Made by a program: the position numbers and the translations under genes
Assembly: GCA_902555055.1 (NCBI GenBank)
Contig: CACDQN010000005.1
Span: 1 to 62,226, forward strand
Direction of reading: 5' to 3'
DNA: 62,226 nt
Source: an uncultured Candidatus Actinomarina sp.
GTDB lineage: Bacteria; Actinomycetota; Acidimicrobiia; Actinomarinales; Actinomarinaceae
The notes under the pieces: generated by a model
The model's database searches: none
The model's input: the letters and a program-made list of their open reading frames with translations, nothing else
What the model was told of the DNA's origin: nothing
Shown here: positions 5,919 through 59,354 of the stretch, piece after piece
How the letters are laid out: each line of letters starts with the position of its first letter
How positions within the stretch are numbered: the first letter of the stretch is position 1

Positions 5919-6407
5919 ATGTTAAAAAGAAATCTTATTCTTCTACTGTTGGCTTTAACCCTCGGTGTAGTCATTGTTAACTCACCTCTGAAAAGTAATT
6001 CAGAAAGTAGTATGTATTCGACAGTTAACGATGGTATTGTTTTAAATGAACTTCTAGAGATTGATAATTTCACTAAATCTAACAATATTACAATATTGAA
6101 TCTTTGGGCAAGTTGGTGCATTCCATGTCAAAATGAGGTAGAAGAATTAAAGAAAATAAGCCAAAATGAAAATTATCAAGTAATAGGAATATTAGTTGAT
6201 GACTCTGTTGAAAATGGTAAAGAGTTTATTCTAAAAAATAATATCAACTACATCAATGTACTGGATGAATTCAGTGCAGACCAATTATTAATTAAATTTA
6301 TGTGGAGTGGTATCCCAACAACTATAATACTTAATCAAAATCTTGAGATTCTTTACACAATTAATGGAGAAATAACTGCAAAAGAAATATTTAATCTTTC
6401 AGATTAA
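5919..6407 (+). CDS. TlpA/ResA-type thioredoxin, membrane-anchored
   Basis: A 162-residue protein with one N-terminal membrane segment (about 5-21, after MLKRN), so the domain faces outside. The thioredoxin motif is NLWASWCIPCQNE, with the redox cysteines at 67 and 70. The cis-proline loop is GIPTTIIL, near residue 131. TlpA-like proteins reduce extracytoplasmic disulfides, for example in cytochrome c maturation; the partner here is unknown. It is transcribed divergently from mrp across a 39-base gap. Confidence 0.88.
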   Translation: MLKRNLILLLLALTLGVVIVNSPLKSNSESSMYSTVNDGIVLNELLEIDNFTKSNNITILNLWASWCIPCQNEVEELKKISQNENYQVIGILVDDSVENGKEFILKNNINYINVLDEFSADQLLIKFMWSGIPTTIILNQNLEILYTINGEITAKEIFNLSD

Positions 6408-38234: not shown

Positions 38235-38265
38235 GATATAAGTATGTAATTAAATTTGTTATATG
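38228..38265 (+). promoter_or_regulatory. Consensus leaderless promoter of csaA
   Basis: TTGACA (38228-38233), a 17-base spacer, and TAAATT (38251-38256), then 6 bases to the ATG at 38263. This is the clearest leaderless promoter in the window. The -35 overlaps the start codon of the divergent flavin reductase gene. Confidence 0.65.
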
Positions 38266-38598
38266 GAAAACGAAAATATAAATTTATTTTCAAAACTGGA
38301 TATTCGAGTGGGAAAGATAGTCTCAGCTGAAAAATTCAAAGAAGCGATTAAACCAGCATATATATTAACCATAGATTTTGGTTTGGATATTGGCATTAAG
38401 AAAACCAGTGCTCAAGTTACAAATTACACATTAAAAGAGCTTGAAAATAAAAACTGTATTGCTGTTATTAATCTTGGTGATAAACAAATTGGACCAATCA
38501 TGAGTCAATGTTTAGTTTTAGGTTCTATATCTCCTAATGGGGATGTACTCCTATTAAGTCCAGATACAAATGCAAAATTAGGCGATAAGATTTCTTAG
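38263..38598 (+). CDS. csaA: CsaA-type tRNA-binding-domain protein
   Basis: A 111-residue single OB-fold protein with LDIRVGKIVSAEKF at the start and VTNYTLKELENKNCIAVINLGDKQIGPIMSQ in the middle. These are the marks of CsaA, a dimer related to the EMAPII/Trbp111 tRNA-binding domain and described as a secretion chaperone. Its stop overlaps the end of the convergent thioredoxin-like gene by four bases. Confidence 0.9.
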   Translation: MENENINLFSKLDIRVGKIVSAEKFKEAIKPAYILTIDFGLDIGIKKTSAQVTNYTLKELENKNCIAVINLGDKQIGPIMSQCLVLGSISPNGDVLLLSPDTNAKLGDKIS

Positions 38599-39068
38599 CT
38601 TGTTTTGTTTAAAAAATAATTGGGGTTAAATGTCCCAACTCTTCGACCCAGTTTTTCACCATGATTATCGATTAATACATACGTAGGAGTGTTATAAAGT
38701 TTGTAAGTTTCTATAAATGGGTGGTCTTTCTGCTTACTTGCATTTATAGAAACAAAATATATTTTGGGGTTATTCTTCTTAAATTCATCAACTATGAATT
38801 TTGATGCTGTACATCCCAGTCAGTAATCTGAATAGAATTCAATGATTGAGTATTCATGATCAGAAAAGTTATATGAATCATCTACCATTTTTCTATTTGA
38901 AGTATAAAAAAATAGAGCATAAAATATTCCAATAACTCCAAAACTTAAAAAATAAAGTGCTGATATAGGTTCAAAAGCTATAAAAAATATTGCAAGGCCT
39001 ACAACCCAAGCAACAGGTAAATATATCAAACTATATCTGTTTAATATTTTTAAAAATTTTTTTTTCAT
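38595..39068 (-). CDS. Candidate selenoprotein: membrane-anchored UxxC thioredoxin
   Basis: The frame begins at ATG 39068 and is interrupted only by TGA at 38820-38822; with TGA read as selenocysteine the protein is 157 residues. Two membrane helices (about 12-33 and 37-57) precede a thioredoxin domain. The text around the TGA is IIEFYSDY-U-LGCTASKF, so U83 and C86 form a UxxC redox motif exactly where thioredoxins have CxxC. The domain continues to a proper cis-proline loop (YNTPTYVLID, Pro128) and ends at TAA. A SECIS-like hairpin follows the TGA. No selenium genes are visible here. A degraded gene is the alternative, but frame and fold are intact. Confidence 0.75.
38781..38801 (-). promoter_or_regulatory. 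Candidate bacterial SECIS hairpin
   Basis: In the minus-strand RNA, AAAUUCAU and AUGAAUUU form a perfect 8-bp stem with the loop AGUUG. The loop starts 27 bases after the UGA. Bacterial SECIS elements lie inside the coding region, with the apical loop about 16-37 bases past the UGA and a G at the first or second loop position followed by U. All three conditions hold. The weaker stem CATCAA/TTGATG competes. Confidence 0.6.
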
Positions 39069-39102: not shown

Positions 39103-39513
39103 ATGGACTTCGCTAATCATTTGAAAAAAAGGGGTTACAGAATTACCAATGCTAGAGAAGTAATTTGTACAATCTTAGAAAATGCAGGACATAAACACTT
39201 TACTGTTGAGGAGCTGCACAATGAATCAATAAAGAGGGATAAAAATATTGACTTAGCAACAGTATATAGAACTTTGGAAGTGTTAGAAGATATTGATATT
39301 ATTGAGCACTCTCATCAAGTACATGGATCTGGTGTTTTTTATTTAAAGAATGAGTACTCAAACTTTCATATTATTTGTGAATTTTGTAAAAAAATTTTTG
39401 ATTTAGAAGAAAGCACTAGTAAAAAAATAAATGATTTAGTAAGAAAAGATTCTAATTTTAAGGTTATAAACAACGATTTTATATATTCAGGTCAATGTAA
39501 AAACTGTAATTGA
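39103..39513 (+). CDS. Fur-family regulator, probably nickel-responsive (Nur-like)
   Basis: A 136-residue Fur protein. The DNA-binding winged helix is RITNAREVICTILENAGHKHFTVEEL through DLATVYRTLEVLED. Metal and structural sites include HSHQVHGSG, the CEFC pair (about 95-98) and CKNCN at the end. Start ATG 39103 is chosen, since the upstream extension (12 residues) does not match the family. The adjacent TTGCAA-N5-TTGCAG site and ECF genes point to nickel rather than iron or zinc. Confidence 0.85.
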   Translation: MDFANHLKKRGYRITNAREVICTILENAGHKHFTVEELHNESIKRDKNIDLATVYRTLEVLEDIDIIEHSHQVHGSGVFYLKNEYSNFHIICEFCKKIFDLEESTSKKINDLVRKDSNFKVINNDFIYSGQCKNCN

Positions 39514-59169: not shown

Positions 59170-59203
59170 ATATGCTCCATTCCAACGAGCTTGTTGAAAT
59201 TTT

Positions 59204-59336
59204 ACTGCTTTAACCTACCTCTGTTCAACAATTTCTTGCTGTTTTTAATAGCTTATAACGACTGCAGTGCCGAGTATGCATCCGCCGAATTTTTCGATAA
59301 CATACTACCTCGTCACCTTTTTCAAGGCCTGGCGCT
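59204..59336 (-). ncRNA. glmS ribozyme (self-cleaving riboswitch)
   Basis: The minus-strand leader contains the glmS ribozyme core in the right order: AAGCGCC at the cleavage site, then GGTGACGAGGT, TTATCGA, and TTCGGCGGATGC with CTCGGC. A downstream AACAGAGGTAGGTTAAAGCAG matches the P4 region. Cleavage should fall between 59336 and 59335. The RNA cuts itself when glucosamine-6-phosphate binds and so lowers glmS expression. The 3' border is approximate. Confidence 0.93.
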
Positions 59337-59354
59337 TATTAGCTCGTTAGTATC

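Follow-up and report, generated by a model that had tools for sequence, protein, structure and literature searches.

A UGA at the catalytic cysteine position of a thioredoxin frame

Is the UGA that falls inside a thioredoxin-like frame of Candidatus Actinomarina the end of a short gene, or a codon for selenocysteine (Sec)? The frame lies in the window (the whole 62,226-nt stretch of DNA that we analysed, which is contig C5 of a 1.01-Mb genome, 82% complete) and was pointed out in an initial annotation as 157 codons at 38595–39068 with a TGA as the sole interruption. These coordinates are exact; the strand, which had been left unstated, is minus, with the ATG at 39068–39066 and the TAA at 38597–38595, and the lengths of the orthologues and synteny agree with this gene model. 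Translation of 39068–38595 with TGA as U (M...YSDYULGCTASKF...NTPTY...KTS-stop) contains exactly one internal TGA, codon 83 (38822–38820, minus strand), and, as had been proposed, this TGA occupies the first catalytic Cys position of the thioredoxin motif, within a Y-U-L-G-C active site (residues 82–86; 38811–38825, minus strand). The frame then runs on through N-T-P-T, with the cis-proline codon (P128) at 38685–38687 on the minus strand, to the terminal TAA, again in line with the earlier reading. Residues 79–86 are invariant in a 22-sequence alignment, and so are T127, P128 and T129.

Read with the standard code, the frame closes after 82 aa, and an annotation made with that code would label the gene an 82-aa fragment. 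At the local base composition, the chance of 74 open codons beyond a TGA is about 0.003. Judging from the comparisons set out below, we consider it very probable (about 0.93) that the product of this gene is a selenoprotein of the thioredoxin fold tethered to the membrane, a selenothioredoxin, with the UGA at codon 83 decoded as Sec.

Predicted fold and membrane topology

An AlphaFold2 model based on the 22-sequence alignment (pLDDT 87, pTM 0.80) shows a membrane hairpin of two helices followed by a thioredoxin domain, and a Foldseek search with this model returns thioredoxins. The predicted membrane helices, residues 13–31 and 36–57 (38898–39032, minus strand), are hydrophobic in all orthologues and agree with the two N-terminal membrane helices suspected earlier. 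Both hallmarks of the thioredoxin fold, a CxxC-type motif starting helix 1 and a cis-Pro loop, are present, and in the modelled product the two N-terminal helices would be followed by the thioredoxin domain, whose active site is U-L-G-C and which carries the cis-proline loop.

The charges (Lys/Arg at the N-terminus, a short inter-helix loop, and Arg/Lys past helix 2) suggest, by the positive-inside rule, that both termini are inside, and hence that the thioredoxin domain probably faces the cytoplasm. The most likely role there, to which we give about even odds, would be that of a membrane-bound reductant acting through its selenol and thiol on proteins of the cytoplasm or the membrane, and the selenothioredoxin might in turn be recycled by the cell’s thioredoxin system. 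The same selenoprotein with its thioredoxin domain on the outer side of the membrane, where it would reduce extracytoplasmic disulfides in the manner of DsbD-gamma or TlpA/ResA, is unlikely in our judgement, though it carries some weight: the sequence has weak matches to DsbD, DsbE and ResA profiles, and a separate TlpA/ResA-like protein with the motif WASWCIPC is encoded in the window (5919–6407, plus strand). At the same time, the charge pattern points the other way, and the genome (82% complete) yielded no DsbD/CcdA electron carrier or membrane partner.

Conservation and selection on both sides of the UGA

The selenothioredoxin gene was found in 33 of the 42 genomes of the genus, each time with a single TGA, at codon 83. 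We read this codon directly in 30 loci (TGA in 30/30) and the U-LGC motif in 29 named loci; the 30 loci yield 27 distinct proteins, every one of them 157 aa long with U at position 83, and across the carrying genomes identity to the window protein ranges from 47 to 94%. Many of the carriers are separate single-cell assemblies, and the close relatives identified in the named genome collection are single-cell genomes and MAGs of Candidatus Actinomarina. Synonymous differences among the orthologues average about 0.6 per site, and mean pN/pS is 0.36 upstream and 0.38 downstream of the UGA; selection is equally strong on both sides.

These figures bear on the reading in which the gene is truncated, with the UGA a true stop, so that only a membrane hairpin peptide of 82 aa would be made and the frame beyond the stop would be a remnant. 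It has in its favour that the standard-code ORF ends at this UGA and that UGA often serves as a stop in the window, but purifying selection on the 74 downstream codons equals that on the upstream part, and all orthologues keep the 157-aa length, the cis-Pro and the active-site Cys. Moreover, the downstream frame runs exactly to the stop of its neighbour, a convergent CsaA-like tRNA-binding protein (38263–38598, plus strand; Pfam tRNA_bind, E 3.3e-12; conserved in synteny) whose stop overlaps the selenothioredoxin TAA by 4 nt, in a genome where the median gap between large ORFs, measured in the window, is 0 nt. A decayed downstream region among relatives, which had been named as an outcome that would speak against a selenoprotein, is excluded by their intact downstream frames, and we regard truncation as very improbable.

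The gene order cbiQ-fur-(selenothioredoxin)-csaA-FMN reductase-plsC is identical in all 29 named loci. The fur gene of this order is a divergent Fur-family regulator (39103–39513, plus strand; Pfam FUR, E 1.2e-25), adjacent in 29/29 named loci, and given this neighbour redox or metal regulation is plausible. In the nine genomes of the genus without a selenothioredoxin gene the Fur orthologue next to it is absent as well (two of them hold only a 29–32% paralogue), which suggests that the gene’s absence is probably due to missing sequence. One contig labelled Saprospiraceae (L064, ALOHA_ZT_63) carries the complete Actinomarina neighbourhood of the gene; as the entire neighbourhood is Actinomarina-like, we did not take it for a case of horizontal transfer, and the contig is probably misbinned.

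Sec/Cys exchange among homologues is the usual proof of a selenoprotein, although it is not a strict requirement. The initial annotation had raised the replacement of TGA by TGT or TGC in relatives; this did not turn up, and UGA is kept in every relative found to carry the gene. No Cys orthologue was found in 395 genomes of the class, in the named genome collection (a search biased by its patterns towards close relatives) or in viral contigs, and the viral contigs held no copy of the gene at all; Cys occupies that position only in distant thioredoxins. From these sequences the family looks Sec-only.

Selenocysteine machinery and the reading of UGA

If codon 83 is read as Sec, the genome should be able to make and insert it, and it had been suggested that the rest of the genome be searched for selA, selB, selC and selD. 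All four are there, which excludes the absence of selB, selC and selD that had been named as a second outcome against a selenoprotein. SelA matches with E 2.9e-92 and SelD with E 9.8e-113, and the tRNA-Sec has the anticodon TCA (UCA). SelB scores 223 bits, below the NCBIfam cut-off of 242; we nevertheless accept its identity because the match is full-length (profile positions 2–570 of 581), selB directly adjoins selA, and a SelB winged-helix domain is found. Within the genus, SelA is present in 34 of the 42 genomes, including 8/8 of those at least 90% complete, and SelD in 40 of the 42, the best SelD match of each having one internal TGA. In the window’s own genome selD (L017; C1:109,467–110,393) is itself a UGA-containing selenoprotein gene, with the motif HGAG-U-ACK, whose U is at the usual Sec position of the SelD family. 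According to earlier work, SelD is Sec-containing in Sec-decoding organisms without FdhA (PMC1794560); the Actinomarina SelD is of this Sec-containing kind.

We see no better prospects than for truncation in a different reading of UGA, whether by a variant code in which UGA is Trp or by leaky readthrough that inserts Trp or Cys. Readthrough of UGA is known elsewhere, but in the window TGA terminates 16 of the 64 large ORFs, and it even terminates one of the orthologues (L045), which has UGA at codon 83 and again as its terminal stop. Trp21 of the same protein is encoded by TGG, the tRNA with the UCA anticodon is a Sec tRNA, and the UGA sits at the catalytic Cys site. The initial annotation had judged a changed code unlikely, and these observations agree with it; the two UGAs of L045, together with the use of TGA as an ordinary stop elsewhere, indicate that context decides how UGA is read. 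Finally, single-cell and metagenome assemblies can contain errors, but a sequencing or assembly error that made TGA out of TGT, TGC or TGG can practically be dismissed, given the recurrence of this TGA in 33 genomes, many of which were assembled separately from single cells, at about 0.6 synonymous differences per site.

A putative SECIS hairpin downstream of the UGA

Decoding of codon 83 as Sec would be carried out by SelB and tRNA-Sec(UCA), guided by a hairpin just downstream of the UGA. A candidate for this bacterial SECIS element, AAUUCAU-AGUUG-AUGAAUU, lies at 38782–38800 on the minus strand, with its loop 26 nt past the UGA. The consensus helix returned by RNAalifold is exactly AAUUCAU-AGUUR-AUGAAUU, and all 161 cells (23 distinct sequences) are paired. 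One stem pair varies between U-A, U-G and C-G, the C-G being a double change in one orthologue (L047), where it goes with Phe91 to Leu. When the partner strand was slid by 1–3 columns as a control, pairing fell to 14–57%, while a shuffle control was not significant (71/500), since most stem pairs are invariant. The hairpin coincides with codons 89–95, which have the lowest synonymous variation in the gene (ATA in 30/30, GTT in 30/30, TTC in 29/29), with a permutation p of 0.0003, or about 0.02 after allowing for some 60 windows, the stretch having been picked post hoc.

The published model of bacterial SECIS elements calls for a loop of 3–9 nt, a stem of 4–16 bp, a G in loop positions 1–2, a distance of 16–37 nt from the UGA and an MFE of at most -7.5 kcal/mol (PMC13188914). 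The geometry of the Actinomarina hairpin fits this model, with its 5-nt loop AGUUR (G in position 2), its 7-bp stem and its distance of 26 nt. Folding of the 48 nt from the window UGA gives -8.3 kcal/mol (the hairpin alone, -3.1), and in other orthologues values over 57 nt range from -4.7 to -9.3 kcal/mol. In this AT-rich window a comparable hairpin follows 2–6% of random TGAs, so that the evidence lies in the conservation of the hairpin and not in its presence. In the selenothioredoxin loci the apical loop is AGUUA in 13/30 and AGUUG in 17/30.

Elsewhere in the window, a glmS ribozyme/riboswitch upstream of glmS (59201–59347, minus strand) scores far above the Rfam cut-off.

Other selenoproteins in Actinomarina

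A scan for in-frame UGAs conserved between two relatives, covering 400 kb of the first and 340 kb of the second and with overlapping ORFs filtered out, left three credible genes: SelD, the selenothioredoxin and a SelW-like CxxU protein. The remaining matches, judged by eye, were tRNA-derived, antisense or non-coding shadows, or gene-junction sequence. As about 340–400 kb were compared in genomes near 1.1 Mb, this count is a lower bound. No internal stops were found in the other thioredoxin- or peroxiredoxin-family matches of the window’s own genome.

The SelW-like gene of that genome (L172:13215–13451, plus strand; about C1:79,215–79,451) encodes MDIKLEFCVVUNYTPRAVST..., with the Sec UGA at codon 11 (about C1:79,245) and a second UGA as the apparent stop. 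The protein matches Rdx with E 1.6e-16, and the gene is also found in two relatives (L139 and L158). Its hairpin has the loop AGUUA, 17 nt past the UGA. The SelD gene likewise has a conserved hairpin, with a loop of GUA/GUU 33 nt past the UGA; its closing pair alternates between A-U and G-C, and the covariation score of this helix, which was picked by eye, exceeds all 500 shuffles.

Sec decoding of codon 83 of the selenothioredoxin gene, which we consider close to certain on computational grounds, is thus supported from several sides: the complete sel machinery, UGA at the CxxC Cys position in 33/33 carrying genomes, equal pN/pS on its two sides, the conserved hairpin, the AGUUA loop shared with the SelW-like gene and the Sec-containing SelD.

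Comparison with known families

With Cys replacing U, the best Pfam match is Thioredoxin_2 (PF13098; E 5e-5, 24 bits against a cut-off of 27), followed by Thioredoxin (PF00085; E 8e-5, 23.0 bits against 23.5), and among PDB sequences a thioredoxin matches best (E 4e-5). TIGR01068 is the closest NCBIfam profile for 22/22 members searched (best E 7.5e-8), while no NCBIfam equivalog fits. This profile describes ordinary TrxA, which also provides the closest PDB folds; the Actinomarina protein differs from it in reaching 27.9 bits against a cut-off of 96.8, in its membrane helices and in its Sec. The genome has a separate ordinary TrxA with WCGPC, followed by a small glutaredoxin-like ORF with WCGDC (C2, L126:1498–2319).

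Both UxxC thioredoxins and a large number of Trx-like selenoproteins have been described before, several of them from marine metagenomes (PMC1088965, PMC2398784, PMC9312934, PMC13188914). The PF00085 UxxC selenoproteins (PMC9312934, PMC13188914) share with the Actinomarina protein the thioredoxin fold, Sec as the first residue of CxxC and a SECIS right past the UGA; unlike them, it has an N-terminal membrane hairpin, a ULGC motif, a sub-cut-off Pfam score and no Cys orthologue that we could find. The PF13098 thiol:disulfide interchange selenoproteins (PMC9312934, PMC13188914) are alike in UxxC and in Thioredoxin_2 being the best Pfam match, but again the score is below the cut-off, and the domain arrangement differs as far as can be told. 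The GOS_C hypothetical protein (NF045500; PMC2398784) is also a marine Trx-fold UxxC selenoprotein, but for all 22 members NF045500 was absent from the matches at E up to 10.

In the full-text library searched, no paper pairs Actinomarina with selenocysteine or a selenoprotein, and the main text of the Actinomarinales genome paper (PMC7771536) makes no mention of selenium. Reads of the gene may be present in older marine metagenome sets under a general Trx label. A membrane-hairpin, Sec-only UxxC thioredoxin subfamily appears to be undescribed. The initial annotation, which recognised UxxC selenoproteins as an established class, was right on that point and in taking the membrane hairpin and the host lineage as new; to these is now to be added the absence of Cys forms, for which it had proposed to check the relatives.

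Implications

Tentatively, and at somewhat less than even odds, we propose that the selenothioredoxins are a thioredoxin family, restricted to Candidatus Actinomarina, for which Sec is obligate and Cys never occurs, and whose AGUU-type SECIS loop is common to the unrelated SelW-like gene. The shared apical loop offers a concrete, testable SelB recognition signal. Streamlined ocean bacteria discard nearly everything dispensable, and yet Actinomarina, with a genome of about 1 Mb, keeps selA, selB, selC and selD and at least three selenoproteins. The selenothioredoxin links a surface-ocean lineage to selenium and, having kept its synteny throughout the genus and having turned up in no Cys form, provides a direct test case for the retention of selenocysteine. 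If the proposal is true, a core membrane selenothioredoxin would be among the reasons for the retention of the complete Sec system, in the oxygen-rich surface ocean, by so small a genome.
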